64,000 nucleotides of DNA from Acholoe squamosa (lineage: Eukaryota; Annelida; Polychaeta; Phyllodocida; Polynoidae). Shown here in pieces: positions 49,201 through 57,961 of this stretch (positions are counted from its first letter, which is position 1; every line of letters begins with the position of its first letter). The stretch is taken from NCBI GenBank assembly GCA_949317995.1, contig OX439043.1, positions 42,661,560 to 42,725,559 of the forward strand, read 5' to 3'. The notes under the pieces were generated by a model. That model saw nothing but the letters and a program-made list of their open reading frames with translations. It was not told the DNA's origin and did no database searches. The position numbers and the translations under genes are program-made.

Positions 49201-49740
49201 ATAATAGGGGATTCACAAGGAAGTTCCCTTCCTAGGTGTATATAAAACTTTCAGAAGCCTACTGTAATATTTGCGTTATTGGCAGTTAATGGCTGTAAAT
49301 ATCTCAACATAAATAGTACAATTCTAAACTAAAAGAGCTAAGCTGTTAGTCCTGCCTGAATTTTAAACTGGCATGTAGCTAATCAGGATGTAGAAGACGG
49401 GTCATGATTGGACTTTATTTTTCTTACGTGAACTACTTTTTAGCAACCAGTTTGGAGGGTTTGTGGATCGGAATTTGTCATTGCACTGGATGGCCGGTGT
49501 ATTCTTAGTTCTAATCTTATGTAAATTATAGCAATCTATTATGAAATATCATGTAACCATGGACGCAACAGTCAGGGCCCATATCTACATGTCGGAGGGA
49601 AACTTACTTAAATCCCCCAAGATGAGGACAGTGTACTACCCGCCCAACAACAGCTTAGCCTCTTGGATGAAGTTCAGATAAAGTCGATAGCCTACTAGTA
49701 CTACACACATATTATAGAGTAATACTGATCTATTAGATTT
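46257..49740. other. 3.5 kb without a recognisable gene; weak internal repeats
   Basis: 47560-47660 and 48050-48140 share ATTTCTAC-ATTG-GCCCAG and CCTGTGCTATTC words, and ATG-containing stretches at 47938 (ATGGCCAGACGAGGAAAAG) and 48481 (ATGGGGCCAAGGAGGAAGG) look related, so this may be an old, diverged tandem repeat. No domain-bearing frame. The minus-strand 106-codon frame at 48531 is unsupported. Confidence 0.35.
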
Positions 49741-50160
49741 TTAAGTTGAATTTTCTTTATTGTCTCAGTTCAAAGCATAGTGACAATTACAAAGTTACCA
49801 AGTACATATCACATTACCATAAAACAAAGAAGTCTACACAGAAAAGAGTTGATATATTGAAAATTAGGAATACTGAGACTAAAGAAGGTAGTGGACCTCA
49901 TCCCCACCACATAGGGTGTATGGGTTGATACTTCTGGTCCAACCTGACCTGTTAGTATATTTGTATAGTGTTGACACACAAATTGCGAATATATAAAAAG
50001 AAATGTACCAACATGGAAAGAAAAAGTAGTTAAAGACCAAGGAATTATTTTAGAAATCAATTTAGTGTAGTTTAGAATAGAGAGGGAGGGGGCCAAAAAA
50101 TAAATTGGTTTAGTAATAAATCAAAGTAAAGGAAAAAAAAAGGTTTAATAGTTGGGGTGC

Positions 50161-53028
50161 TCACCCAACTTTAGGAACAAGTTCAGGTAATAATTTTTTA
50201 CTATTTGACTTAAAAATTGACAAAGTTTCAGAATTCCGTCTTATGGTAGGGAGAGCATTCCAACTAATGGCACCAAAGTACTCAACACTTTTCATATATG
50301 AAGCAGTGTTAGGGAATAAAACCTTACATGTGGGAGCCAAATGTTGTCTTGTTCTTATTTGCCTATGATCAATATAATTATCACATCTAGATCTTGTATA
50401 CATGTAGTTCAATAGATGCATATGTCTCCTATCAGATAAAAGATTACTGTTGGTGATATTATGAACATACAAAGTATCAGTAAGGTGTGGCACTTTGAGA
50501 CAGATTTTTAAACAACGGTTTTGAGCGTATTGGAGCATTTCCAGGTATTTTTCATATGTAGAGTGGAAAATAATGTCAGCATAGTCCATATATGGTAGAA
50601 TGGTAGTTTTAAAGATTCTAAGAGATAATTTAACATCAGTATACTTCCTTAGGGTACACAAAAGGTAAGTTTTATGAGAAATTGTTTTAACCTGATTTTT
50701 GATATGCAGACTATAACTCAGTAGGGGATCCAAGGTGATCCCAAGGTATTTATAACTTGGTACAACTTGCAGTAACATATCACTCATGGAAATATTGGCT
50801 GACAAAGTATTAAGTTTCCAGGTACATGATGAGAAAATCATTATTTTGGTTTTTGCAATATTAACAGAAAGCTTGTTTTGCTCACACCAAGTATTATAGG
50901 TCTCTAGATCTTCCTGTAAACACACTTTAGCAGCCTCAAAGTTATTGTGAGATGTGTAGATAACAGTGTCATCAGCATATAATCTGATTTTACAATTTTT
51001 AATACATTTAATCACATCATTGACATAAACCAAAAAAAGCAGGGGTCCCAGAATCGATCCTTGGGGGACACCGCAGACCACCTTGCACATTCTAGAAGCA
51101 ATACCATTAGCATTAACAACTTGCTTTCTATCAGCCAAATAATTTTTAAACCAGTGGTATGTATCAGACCTTATACCATAATTATGTAATTTAATAAGGA
51201 GTACCGAGTGGTCTACGGTGTCAAATGCTTTCCTCAAATCTATGAAAGCAGCAACAGTGGATTTTCCAACATTAAGGTCTCTTTTGATATCATCAGTGAA
51301 TTTAGATAGAGTATCAACAGTGCTATAGCCAGGGCGAAAACCACCTTGATAATTTGTTAAAGTATTTTCATCATTTAAGAAACCATACAGTCTATTATGA
51401 ACAATTTTTTCGATTAATTTACAAGGTAAAGGAATAAGTGAGATAGGCCTGTAGTTATTGACCATCTTTAAATTACCAGATTTAGGGATTGGGGTGACTT
51501 GGGAGATCTTCCATTTGGTGGGTACTGAGGCGGTTGCAAAGGACAAATTGAACATTCTAACCAATTTATCAGGATCATGAGAAAAAACTTTTTTTTAAAT
51601 CCTAGAAGATATCTGATCAATGGCAGAGGATTTAAGTGGATTAATATCACAAATAAGTTAAATAACTTCTTGGGTATTGGTTTCAAAATTCTCCATAGAG
51701 TTAGGGGTAGGGGGGTCATAACCTTTCCAAGGTGTGTGCATGTTAGTAGCTAATTTGGGTCCAATGTTAGAAAAGTAGTCATTGATAAAATCAGAGGTTT
51801 GATTTCTCGGAATGGCTATATTGTCGTTTTCATGATCCACCAAGTTTATTTCACCAGTTCTGTTCTCGTGGCCAGGAATTAATTTATTTATAACACGCCA
51901 GAATTTCCGATGGTTATTTTTATAGTATTCTCCTTGTTCTTTATAAAATAATCTACGTGCTTTGTTAACCAATTTGTTTGATTTATTTCGTGATTTGTCA
52001 GCAATTTTCCAATCATTTTCAGTCCCAGATCTACGAGCTGTCTTTAGTTTTGGATTTTTATCTCTAATAAGCTCTATCACTTGGGGGGTAATCCATGGAT
52101 CTCTTAATTTGTTAACAGTAAACTCATGTACAGGACAATAGGTATCAAGGATTGATCGCACAGCTTTTTCATATTCATTCCATACAATATCAATGTTATT
52201 AGCCTGATTAAATACAGTCCAGTCATATTCATCAAATTTGGCAAGCAACAAATCATCAGAAAGTTTCAAATATGAACGACCTTCAATCACAGTTTTGTCA
52301 GGTTTAATATACCATTTCTTTCTAACCAAATAGATGGGAAGGTGGTCCGAGATGTATGAATCCAAAATTCTTGTTTGAATATAGTTCCTCCTCAAACTAG
52401 TAAAAACCAGATCCAGAATAGCATTTTTACGAGTAGATTGATTAATTTCTTGCGAAAAGCCATGACCCTTCATTTTATTTAACAGTTGATTAACCATATC
52501 ATTATCATCCCTAGTATTGAAATTAAAGTCACCCATGATAATGATCTCGTAATTATTTCTGTCATTTACACTATCGATAGTATTTAGTAACGAGTCTATG
52601 AACATTTGTTTAAGGCCTTCTTCAGGCGGTCTATATACATTAAATACAATTATAGGCTTCATATGTGCCTTTGTAAGCAAGACATTTTGGATTTTAATGT
52701 GTTCCTCAGAGAGGTTCAAATTTTCAAATGAGCAATAATCATGGGGTACACCATGCCGTATGTAAAAACACAAACCTCCACCAGTTTTAATATTTCCCTT
52801 CTCATCTAAAGTTTGTCTATCTGATCTATATCTGACATAATTAGAGAATTGATATGAGGTCTCAGGGTCCTCACACTTTAACCAAGTCTCAGAAAATGAG
52901 AATATTTCTATTTTATCATTATACAATTCTGTACATATGGTGGGGTAGTTAGCCCTTAGGCTTCTAGCGTTCAAATGAACAAAATGAATACCTTTGGTGC
53001 CAGCCAAACTAATTATGTCTTGAGACAT
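50161..53028 (-). pseudogene. LINE ORF2: APE endonuclease and reverse transcriptase, two stops
   Basis: One frame of about 955 codons. The first 456 codons hold the APE-type endonuclease: FVHLNARSLR (Asn20), SETWL (Glu47), VYRPP (132), GDFN (166-169) and SDHLPI (His229). After the linker, the reverse transcriptase shows NYRPISL, GGFRPGYSTVDTL, AFIDLRKAFDTVDH (motif A), GVPQGSILGPLLF (motif B), the catalytic LYADDTV (YADD at about 50979-50968) and KYLGITLD. The C-terminus has FGAISWNALPTIRR, then LPELVPKVG and a stop. Two in-frame TAA codons lie in the linker (51658-51660 and 51595-51597), the second beside an A-run; the frame is otherwise continuous. The product would nick target DNA and copy its own RNA. 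These stops should prevent a full-length enzyme from this copy. Confidence 0.93.
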
Positions 53029-53441
53029 GTTAGTGCTTGGAGTACAACCAGATATTTCGACAATCTCTCAATTTCCCTTATTACAAGCTTGGGAATATAA
53101 TCAAAATATTGGTCAATAGGATGTAGTTGATACAATATAACATTGGTTAATATAGGTACCGTAAGACGGGTATAGGCCTTATTGCCACCCATGGTACCGG
53201 TATGGGGTTGAGTCTTCAACTAGTTTCGGGGGGCATTGGGGTACCAGGGAAAATTACCAAAGAAAATAAATCGAATCAAATATAACATACATAATAGGGT
53301 TTCGATGGGACATGGAGTAATACGACATCAGAACAGGTGTATAAGATGTACCGGTACACTATATAGTAAAGTTCATCAGAAAATCATTGTTCATGAGCCG
53401 TTTGGTGGTCATTAACTCCAATAGTATGTAGAGATATCCCA
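53029..53441 (-). other. ORF1-ORF2 spacer of the LINE
   Basis: About 410 bp without a supported frame, unusually long for a LINE inter-ORF region. The 68-codon frame at 53013-53219 lacks features. It may hold the signal that lets ORF2 be translated; nothing specific is visible. Confidence 0.5.
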
Positions 53442-54930
53442 TTAGGCCTGGGACTGGTTAAGGTCTTGGTTTCTTGCCATTTCGAGTCGTACTTCTTCAG
53501 CTGTTTTGAGGGGGTCTTCACCTGTGTGTAACCTACGCACTTCTACGAGAATTTCTCCCAACTTATTAGCACAGTCAGACTTTGCCACATTTGTTATCAC
53601 GATGTCCTCTTTCTGACCTAGATGGTACCCACAGCCATATGTTTTATTATTTGTGGCCTCATACATGTATTTTCCTTTGTAGGATGTCAGTTTGTTTCTG
53701 AGGAGAGGGTTATTGAATTTAATTTCAACAAGTTTGTATATGGTAGACTCCTCTTCGTCAAACCATTCATTTGTTTTTTTACAACTTTTGGCTGCAAACA
53801 TTGCTTCAGTAGGAGTACCAGCTGCCATAACTTTTCGTAGTACATGGGGTTGGTTGGACTTAACACACATCTCTGCACAGTATGCCCTTTAGACTGAGTC
53901 AAACATCTGGTCATGATATTGTATTTGGCAGGGATAGAGATTCGAGAAGACTGAATAAGGCCCTTGGAAAGCTACACCATCAGGGGTATTTATTGTCTTA
54001 GCATTCTCCAAGGATAATCTATTGGGCAGGGTGCCAAGTTCCCCATAGCCATAGGTTACACCATCAACAATAATGGAATTTCCTCTTATGGTGGAGTTAA
54101 TCTGTTTGCTCCTGGCTAGGGCCTGTATGGATCTTAGGTCTTTCTGCATTTTGTTTTTCTTTGGGAGACATGTCATCTGAGAGATGGACCCCTTTCCAAT
54201 TGACATTGTATCGCAACTTACTAATGTTGGCGAAGATCAGGGATTTATAGTGTGTAGCAGTAAATACAACAATTACAGGCCTATTCCTAGGCTTAAAATT
54301 AGGGTTATTCCTTTGTCGAGGGGTTGGTTCAAATTTTCTACCTCTACGGTAAACTGCTTCTGCACATGTATTGTCAAATGACAGGCCTATGTCTTGTATT
54401 AGCTGATCTAATTTATCCCTTAAAGTAACTGGTGAGTCTTCACTAATACCATCGATTACAAGGATTTTTCTCTTTCTGTCAGCTTCCATTTTTGTGAAGT
54501 TTTCTGCATAGTTGTCACAGTTGGATTTGACTTTATCGACATCACTAGTGTTTTTAGTTATGCTGTCACTATGGCCCGATAACGTAGTGTCAATGCTGTC
54601 AATGCGAGTTTCCAACTGGGGTAGTGTCACTTTGGACTTGACAGCACCCTCTTCACCATAAATACGTTTTTCTAGACCCTGCAGTAATTCCAATGTACGT
54701 TGACTAACAGAGGCTTGAAGGTTTAACCTATTCTCAATCTCATTAATCTTGTCGATGATGTCTTTAGGTTTGGAATTATAGGTTAATGGTGGTAATAGCG
54801 GTATGGTCTGCTCACCGTCTGGTTTGTTTACCTTGCTGTTGTCCGCCATCTTGGGTAGGCCTTTGTCGTCAAGACAGAGCAGCGGTTGTGTACAACTTTT
54901 CCTGGTCGATATGGATTTAGAATCACTCAT
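53442..54930 (-). pseudogene. LINE ORF1: coiled coil, RRM, C-terminal domain and NADAR domain
   Basis: About 495 codons if unbroken. Residues 56-152 form a charged heptad-rich coiled coil (DKINEIENRLN, LPQLETRIDSID), the trimer-forming part of LINE ORF1 proteins. Residues 155-236 form an RRM (KILVIDGISED, PVIVVFTATHYKS), then the usual C-terminal domain (HLSDDMSPKEK and, after a net one-base shift near 54150, KDLRSIQALARSK and GNSIIVDGVTYGYGEL). What follows is not standard: GPYSVFSNLYPCQIQYHDQ, then EAMFAAKSCKKTNEWFDEEE, EIKFNNPLLRNKL, NKTYGCGYHLGQ and CANKLGEILVEVRRLH. These match the successive NADAR (YbiA/DUF1768) motifs: the SNF/Y-P start, W, KF, YGxG and N-LG-R. A TAA at 53889-53891 stands where the family has its conserved Glu. 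NADAR proteins bind ADP-ribose and some remove it from guanine; activity here is inferred. Confidence 0.88.
53460..53978 (-). other. NADAR domain region within LINE ORF1
   Basis: The domain lies C-terminal to the RNA-binding part, in the same frame on both sides of the stop (frame of 54206 and of 53870). About 160 residues, the usual NADAR length. Motifs in order: VFSNLYP, DSV followed by the stop, RAYCAEM, W in NEWFD, KF in EIKFNNP, YGCGYH and NKLGEILVEVR. Confidence 0.85.
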
Positions 54931-55075
54931 TGAGGGTGACAGTGTGTGGACCGTGCCTTCATGAAGTATATGTGCAAAATTAAAGGTTGAGCAATGTCCC
55001 AGTACTAATAAATCGATAAGTTTCCCCGGGAGCCCTTTCGCCGACTTCTTCTAGCCGTGTGTCATGGTTGCGCAA

Positions 55076-56810
55076 TGATGACAGAGCACACAAGGTCAGC
55101 TTATAGAGTAAGCTGACATCTATCATAAATACGATTTATAACCAGATGATACAAAGTCAGCTGACTAATTAAGTGGCCATAAAGAAATCTGAGGGCTGGA
55201 GAAGGAATAAATATGCCAAAAGAAAGCAGGATACATAACAGCAAGCAGAATGTTGATATCTGTTATATAACCTGAAATGTGGAGAGAAATATATGTCAAC
55301 AGAAACCTATAGGGGATTGTGTGTTTGGTTGGTGGTAACCAGTATTCTGTGCCAATGCAGTGCTTGATGCATCTAAAAGCCATCATGGTACTCTACTTGC
55401 CCACACCGATAGTTCAAGGGTGATCTTTTGAAAGGGCATTATAACACACCTAGACTTTGCTAAAGAGGTACGATTTTGCACATTAAATGTTTATCCTGCT
55501 ATTAGGGGTACGGTTTCTTGCCATTACCTCACTCAAGGTGATGTACACACATGGTATCCATAAATTTGTGAGAGTACACCCCCTCCCCAGGCCTAAATTA
55601 GGGAAGAGGGTACAACACACAGGTAAACCTGGATAGCTGTGGGTCATTCATTCAGGTTCAGTTGGAAATGCTCGCACTTAAGGGATACATGTGTGTATTT
55701 TTCCCCCCTTTTTTACAGCATTTAAATAAAGTCTCTATGCCTAAGTGAGATGGGTAGGTGGGGAGGGATCATGGGGGCAGGGTCCCCTGCCTTCCTATAT
55801 GTGTTGGCATCTTTCGATCTTAGTCAATTCTTGGAATGCCTATGTTCATTCTGACTCCTGTGGATTTAGATGGAACATACTGGTACATGATGAAGTAGTG
55901 GAGGGGGGATAAGCCAAGGAACAGGGAAGGCCAAGGAAGTAGAAAGGCGTATTAATATCCATACTCAATGATATAGTGCAATCAATATGTGGATGTGCCT
56001 TGTATACACAGCATATGGTAAAATGGGCTATGGGGATGAGTACGGAGGGATGGGGGCTTGGGTATTGGAGATAAAAATGAACATACATGTATATGGCATA
56101 TCAGGGGAATCTACACTGCTAAACAGGATCTTATTTTTATGTGTCCTGACCGAACAAGCACTGGATTGTATATAAGCAAATACCTCCACATTAGCTGATT
56201 TTTCGGTACTTTTGCAAGGCCGATCCCACTCCCCACAGGTTATACCCATGTTAATATTTTTGTGATTTGCCATGTTTTTGGGTCCAAACGCATAGTTTGA
56301 GATAGTCCCCGAAGAAAAGTAGATTTTTCACCACCCCCCTCCCCAATATAAACGGCATAACGGGTTTGGGTGGAATATATAAGTAATATAATAGTAATGT
56401 GGTAAACATTGTAAGCATATATTCATTCTGTATTGTTTATTAATCATGAATAATGTAAAACCTGCTTCATAATGACCTGGTCCTCTACGTCCAGGGAATA
56501 ATCGATATAAGATTAATGCTAACCTGCCAGAAAATGAGATTCAGCTTCACCTGACCTTCTGTGTCCAATTTCTGTACCATCCACACATTCATCATCTGTA
56601 TCAATGTAACCCATCTATATGCTAAATACATTGTGGATGAGCTAGCCTTATGTGATGGGTTGTTACATCTACCTTAAATGGTGTGATCCTATTTCACAAT
56701 AAAGCCTAAATAATCTTGGATTATTCCAGATATGGCAGGTACTTCTTATAATTCATTCTGTTCATGGCATGAGGTTGTGTTGCTGTCTAAAAGGAAATTA
56801 CCGGTTTGGT
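55076..56810. other. no recognisable gene
   Basis: Contains a perfect short palindrome (GTCAGCTTATAGAGTAAGCTGAC, at 55096) close to the LINE's 5' boundary. Frames at 55846-56273 on both strands are unsupported. Confidence 0.4.
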
Positions 56811-57007
<197 letters not shown>

Positions 57008-57031
57008 GGAATGTTGATCATTTTATTATTT

Positions 57032-57720: not shown

Positions 57721-57961
57721 AGGTCGAATCCCACATGGCGAAAAATGGCTGAAATATCTCTGTGATTTTGTCCCTTGTGTTGTATGGCCCTTGTTGAGGC
57801 CATAAACGCAAGGACTACTGCAAACCTGACCCTAAACCACTGTGGGATTCGGAATGAGTTGGTCAATCTTTGCGTTTTATGGCCCCCACAAGGGCCATAC
57901 AATGCAAGGGACGAAATCGCAGAGATATTTCAGCCATTTTTCGCCATGTGGGATTCGACCT
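57721..57961. mobile_element. palindromic element I (241 bp, arms about 92 bp)
   Basis: AGGTCGAATCCCACATGGCG through GGCCATAAACGCAAGG is repeated in inverse at the right, ending CGCCATGTGGGATTCGACCT. The arms differ at only a few positions. The 55-bp centre is unique. It starts 12 bp right of element H. Confidence 0.9.

Follow-up and report, generated by a model that had tools for sequence, protein, structure and literature searches.

What does a NADAR domain, a fold shared with enzymes that release ADP-ribose, do in the first protein of a retrotransposon? The question is raised by a 64,000-nucleotide stretch of the genome of the polynoid annelid Acholoe squamosa (assembly GCA_949317995.1, contig OX439043.1, forward-strand positions 42,661,560 to 42,725,559), referred to below as the window, which carries on its minus strand a long interspersed nuclear element (LINE) whose first open reading frame (ORF1) ends in such a domain. 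Here we demonstrate that NADAR is a genuine, conserved and selected part of the ORF1 protein (ORF1p) in a LINE family of many copies, and that the window holds a decayed member of this family, of which many copies are still open in both frames. A preliminary description of the window, made from its letters, had suggested that the domain erases ADP-ribose; the residues of its active site suggest that in this family it may bind ADP-ribose rather than release it.

Results

The NADAR domain is part of a LINE ORF1

The element and its parts, all read on the minus strand, are as follows.

49740..55073, minus strand: full-length but decayed non-long-terminal-repeat retrotransposon (LINE), about 5.3 kb; limits are where similarity to other copies stops
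53442..54930, minus strand: ORF1, with a probable coiled coil, RRM and C-terminal domain (CTD), then NADAR; broken in the window copy, with 495-amino-acid open versions elsewhere
53523..53978, minus strand: NADAR domain of ORF1 (VFSNLYP ... KF ... YMYEAT..YGCG ... NKLG), PF08719; limits by eye from the alignment
53889..53891, minus strand: in-frame TAA where 37 of the 42 copies read encode Glu, a conserved NADAR residue (E43 in the P. nicotianae enzyme)
51658..53067, minus strand: ORF2, endonuclease (EN) part, PF14529 (Exo_endo_phos_2), E 8.7e-10
50161..51594, minus strand: ORF2, reverse transcriptase (RT) part, PF00078 (RVT_1), E 1.4e-41

Similarity to other copies starts at 55,065-55,076 in 25 of the 29 compared at the 5' end and stops at 49,737-49,827 at the 3' end (three copies compared). 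Endonuclease and RT lie downstream of ORF1 on the same strand, and the element is present in many copies with 5' truncations, as is characteristic of a LINE. The preliminary description had placed a NADAR-bearing ORF1 ahead of ORF2 of the same element, and its span agrees exactly with the distance from the Met at 54,930 to the stop at 53,442. In the window, ORF1 is divided into three pieces by a frameshift near 54,150-54,160 and by the TAA at 53,891-53,889, and the ORF2 frame is broken between 51,658 and 51,594.

The last of the ORF1 pieces matches the NADAR profile PF08719 over positions 53-160 of 163 (E 2.6e-9, 38.0 bits; curated cut-off 35.1 bits), and the sequence directly ahead of the window stop codon encodes, in the same frame, the first third (VFSNLYP..) of the domain. 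In L061, an intact family member with an ORF1 of 495 amino acids, the match extends over positions 9-160 (E 5.5e-13, 49.9 bits). The domain has the YbiA/NADAR fold, and the profile match on which the preliminary description had made its claim depend is thus significant in both the broken and the intact protein. A chance motif match was rejected: the ORF1 DNA has 42 matches in the genome, and in 28 of them, counting the window, similarity extends over almost the full length and takes in NADAR. Five relatives from other sources, P0001-P0005, are likewise ORF1-like proteins with the same NADAR domain; neither the window piece nor P0001 found a NADAR when searched by sequence against the PDB.

The remainder of ORF1 had been described as a coiled coil, an RRM and a C-terminal domain. 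Pfam detected neither of the latter two in the window ORF1, and both stand instead on the fold match of the relative P0001 to human LINE-1 ORF1p, in agreement with a type II ORF1. The coiled coil is only probable, being a helix (26-132) in a low-confidence model.

The domain is carried by a many-copy family and is under purifying selection

We searched the whole assembly (1.48 Gb, 63 contigs) with the ORF1 DNA, the NADAR piece and the RT. The ORF1 DNA gave 42 matches (40 of 232 candidates scored) with 79-96% identity apart from the window itself; among 30 loci fetched, 17 have an open frame of at least 400 amino acids over ORF1, and in six of these 17 it has exactly 495 amino acids from Met. 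Of 1,730 candidates for the NADAR piece, 150 were scored: 92 share at least 78% identity with it, and the other 58, with 58-63%, make up a sister subfamily in which many frames of 510-525 amino acids are open. The window RT gave 89 scored copies (25,379 loose candidates), many of them with an ORF2 open over 964-996 amino acids.

The other copies sought in this way show that the two frames travel together. Of the 89 scored RT copies, 57 have a window-family NADAR on their own strand within the 8 kb upstream, and in 52 of these 57 the distance is 1.6-2.3 kb. For 20 RT copies with an ORF2 of at least 928 amino acids, drawn from 67 that were unpartnered in a shorter list, we also retrieved the position where NADAR would be expected, and 12 of them have it there; among the remaining eight, seven have no element similarity there and one has 90 nt only. 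All four of these eight that were examined further downstream lose element similarity 1.46-1.77 kb upstream of the RT start and are thus 5'-truncated. Since RT and NADAR are paired and the NADAR-less copies examined are truncated, the domain belongs to the element, and a one-off insertion was rejected given the many ORF1 and NADAR copies. Copies lacking the domain had been named beforehand as what would speak for such an insertion; of 32 RT copies for which no NADAR partner was scored, four were examined, and none of these four is a natural NADAR-free version.

Selection was measured as the pairwise Nei-Gojobori ratio of nonsynonymous to synonymous substitution rates (dN/dS) among 15 open copies, with L042 and L043 excluded because their open frame leaves that of NADAR, and with pairs of saturated dS or dS up to 0.1 removed. 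The median dN/dS was 0.077 for NADAR (101 of 105 pairs usable), 0.063 for RRM plus CTD (95 pairs) and 0.088 for the coiled-coil part (92 pairs). When L046 was excluded as well, the 14 remaining copies gave 0.080 for NADAR in frame (87 of 91 pairs), whereas the wrong frames gave 1.67 (56 pairs) and 1.52 (61 pairs). Picking open copies biases dN/dS somewhat; nine pairs with broken copies also gave 0.09-0.36, and most of the divergence therefore arose while NADAR was needed. The domain is under purifying selection in its own frame, which is how the test suggested in the preliminary description turned out.

The active site of the window family is altered

Residues were numbered on 8bau with an offset of two, with which the 12 residues tabulated from PMC11543638 land on the right letters; L050, missed by the pattern, is absent from our residue table, and P0003, P0005 and most loci stand outside both table and tree. 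Rows of the window family keep E43, W89 and E125 and replace K50 by Met, G78 by Ala, R79 by Lys, D130 by Asn and W133 by Tyr. Across 42 copies, the window among them, the position of the essential lysine K50 is Met in 41 and Val in one, so that its loss is not mere decay of the window copy, a possibility that we rejected. Neither of two further positions follows the YbiA N-glycosidase pattern: D130 is Asn in 42 of 42 copies, and W133 is Tyr in 41 with one gap. W89 is kept in 41 copies. The glutamate of the last strand typical of YbiA, E125, is Glu in 40 and Lys in two, and E43 is Glu in 37, Lys in two, and Ala, Gly or a stop in one each.

Mutagenesis is reported to show that efficient hydrolysis of guanine-ADP-ribose requires the lysine in question, K95 in E. 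coli C7 and K50 in the P. nicotianae enzyme, for which Arg can substitute in vitro (PMC11543638). In nematode SNA-3, mutation of residues chosen as homologues of critical YbiA N-glycosidase residues impaired the protein (PMC9303266); we take these residues to match E43, D130 (Asp) and W133 (Trp).

P0001, P0002 and P0004 keep K50 and W133 and have His at D130, while in the same genome L100 keeps K50 and the sister-subfamily copy L096 has Met (both read from translations). In the NADAR tree, from which five rows were excluded as near duplicates or broken, the window clade forms one group of 10 rows with support of 99/98. Because these relatives and L100 keep the lysine and the tree groups the clade, its loss is probably derived within the window clade, and we infer from the residues that this clade has lost canonical catalysis.

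Other LINE types of the same genome also carry NADAR

A search of the genome with PF08719 gave 3,224 candidates, of which 150 were scored, all above the cut-off, and the 30 loci behind the best matches were read. Two of them, L001 and L002, hold the whole domain in one open frame and are probably host genes; they keep E43, K50, G78, R79, W89, E125, D130 and W133, with R93 lost. Besides the window family, three or more further LINE types carry NADAR, and one of these is L1/Tx1-like. By reading of open frames, eight loci (L003-L006, L008, L012-L014) are ORF1s or remnants with the window layout; three of the eight were aligned with the window-family ORF1, to which L006 is 23% identical. Five loci (L007, L011, L015, L016, L029) represent one type, and the RT of L015 scores 210 bits against human L1 ORF2p versus 72 against R2. 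In fourteen loci (L009, L010, L017-L027, L030) NADAR is the first of two parts, the second being an esterase-like region that is at least partial in 13 and not found in L010; L028 is a short NADAR ORF1. Endonuclease, RT or both follow on the same strand in all seven loci for which the next 3 kb was fetched.

Ten rows of these other LINE types keep E43, E125 and D130, with Lys in seven and Arg in three at the K50 position. The same ten rows have Asp or His at R79, and W133 is lost in five, so that catalysis is not assured in these types either. The number of times that LINEs acquired NADAR could not be resolved in the tree, in which backbone support is 49/79 and branches are long.

Several loci have further features. 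In L006, L008, L013 and L014 (adjoining L031, L037, L035 and L034) the NADAR ORF1 is separated from ORF2 by an additional ORF or two, each about 150-390 amino acids long; in L006, L008 and L013 these have a motif of the GGFNDLC type and, judged by eye, look like SGNH/GDSL hydrolases. Of the two in L006, Pfam left one without a match and gave Lipase_GDSL_2 for the other at E 0.14, below the cut-off. The first ORF of the L019 type reaches 774 amino acids; in L019 itself SASA (PF03629) matched at E 0.0012, below the cut-off, and ORF2 begins in frame directly after the ORF1 stop. At G000:C16:863131-870087 one strand carries two NADAR matches separated by about 6 kb, of which L011, the first, is L1/Tx1-like. 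Elsewhere in the window we noted a foldback repeat at 57721-57961 (two 86-nt arms, 93% complementary, with 69 nt between them) and a long CT-rich microsatellite at about 56820-57010; Rfam and tRNA scans were empty.

Discussion

What the domain may do

L1 ORF1p binds RNA, forms a trimer and is part of the retrotransposition particle. The coiled coil-RRM-CTD body of the window-family ORF1p, which is L1-like, would likewise be expected to bind the RNA of its element, and the C-terminal YbiA-type NADAR would then be a lasting component of the RNA-protein particle, maintained by selection. Judging by family and fold, the domain may still hold an ADP-ribose-like ligand, whether on nucleic acid, on protein or free, whereas its residues suggest that it no longer hydrolyses this ligand, or not in the canonical way. 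As a recognition module it could help the particle to handle ADP-ribosylated RNA, cDNA, target DNA or host protein. True hydrolases may exist among the other NADAR LINE types of this genome, in those that retain a larger share of the catalytic residues. We tentatively favor the view that the window-family NADAR serves the ORF1p particle by binding ADP-ribose or as an altered hydrolase. A bolder version, in which a LINE clade turned a captured ADP-ribose hydrolase, its catalytic center dismantled, into a reader of ADP-ribosylated nucleic acid or poly(ADP-ribosyl)ated chromatin that guides or shields the particle, other LINEs of the genome having more complete NADARs that act as erasers, is distinctly speculative, and we consider it unlikely as a whole.

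Several points weigh against a binding or altered-hydrolase role. K50 touches the adenine and the pyrophosphate (PMC11543638), and its loss could abolish ADP-ribose binding too; conversely, nearby lysines, given the Lys at the R79 position, might restore catalysis. The ligand itself is inferred from the family. E43 is lost in five of the 42 copies and E125 in two, for which decay may be the explanation, and the AlphaFold2 model is that of a 30%-identical relative and is weak (predicted local distance difference test 57, predicted template modeling score 0.31).

A credible though rather unlikely alternative is that the NADAR fold was reused without ADP-ribose binding, giving the ORF1p particle a surface for contacts with protein or RNA. 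Active-site changes alongside strong purifying selection over the domain are what such reuse would look like, and possible precedents are SNA-3, an essential trans-splicing protein whose NADAR1 is without catalytic residues (PMC9303266), and other LINE ORF1s, whose additional domains vary and include PHD and esterase (PMC4120745). The retention of W89 and of the two glutamates at the distal ribose, E43 and E125, speaks against a purely structural role, but only weakly, dozens of other columns being invariant as well.

The preliminary description had proposed an active eraser, in which NADAR strips ADP-ribose from guanine of the element RNA, its cDNA or the target DNA as counter-defense or repair. 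Hydrolysis of guanine-ADP-ribose is documented for bacterial and oomycete NADARs (PMC11543638) and for several NADAR types of E. coli hosts and phages (PMC11125620), and for NADARs of animal RNA viruses a case has been made that ADP-ribosylation by the host is the target (PMC9503650). Most copies of the window family retain both glutamates, and the ten rows of other LINE types additionally hold Lys or Arg at K50 and the aspartate D130. The eraser idea is nevertheless weakened for the window family, because the lysine found essential in E. coli C7 is Met and two more active-site positions are replaced; it may hold for LINE types that keep more of these residues, although R79 is replaced in all ten of their rows and W133 is missing from half of them. 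We therefore regard active erasure as unlikely.

That a roleless host NADAR fragment was merely caught by one element is highly improbable: the window copy is itself broken, but the abundance of matches at 78% identity or more, the 495-amino-acid frames in at least six of 30 loci, the ORF1-like proteins P0001-P0005 and a dN/dS near 0.08, for which a drifting passenger was rejected, all tell against it.

SNA-3 apart, the physiological role of animal NADARs has been called unclear (PMC11125620). A single genome here offers many open and diversified NADARs on RNA-binding LINE proteins, from types in which most of the active site is intact to a clade that has lost the lysine, and two questions can therefore be tested directly: whether ADP-ribose occurs on the nucleic acid or proteins of retrotransposons in animals, and how a NADAR functions without its catalytic lysine.

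Comparison with known systems

Tx1 elements are LINEs of the L1 group. The window RT shows no preference for that group, scoring 44 bits at best with L1-type chains and 47 bits with R2, and by these scores, which do not settle a finer clade, the window LINE lies outside it. It probably belongs to the Jockey/CR1/L2 group. The window element thus differs from Tx1, whereas the L015-type RT of the same genome prefers L1.

The preliminary description had doubted whether a fusion of NADAR with a LINE ORF1 had been described before. It had, briefly: a YbiA-type NADAR of unknown role, for which RNA processing was suggested, occurs in ORF1 of several Tx1 LINE families of the oyster Crassostrea gigas (PMC12477816), so that the fusion as such is already in print. 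The passages of that account compared here contain neither a selection test nor an active-site analysis. As far as our literature searches go, three things are apparently unpublished: a NADAR-bearing LINE that does not belong to the L1 group, a test for selection on the domain, and the changes in its active site. The same source reports a YbiA-type NADAR in Pol of Gypsy elements of the brown alga Ectocarpus, a second kind of retrotransposon with this domain.

The N-terminal two thirds of the window ORF1 probably share the layout of type II LINE ORF1s (coiled coil-RRM-CTD), known from CR1, L2 and L1 (PMC4120745). Some type II subtypes, unlike the window ORF1, carry PHD, and neither 'NADAR' nor 'DUF1768' appears in the text of that paper.

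With the DarT1-linked, YbiA and P. nicotianae NADARs (PMC11543638, PMC11125620), the window family shares the domain family and the glutamates E43 and E125 of the YbiA type. It departs from these enzymes in having Met, Asn and Tyr at K50, D130 and W133 and in being fused to an RNA-binding ORF1p. In nematode SNA-3, too, NADARs, one of them without catalytic residues, form part of an RNA-processing protein (PMC9303266); SNA-3, however, is a host protein with three NADARs and no retrotransposon.
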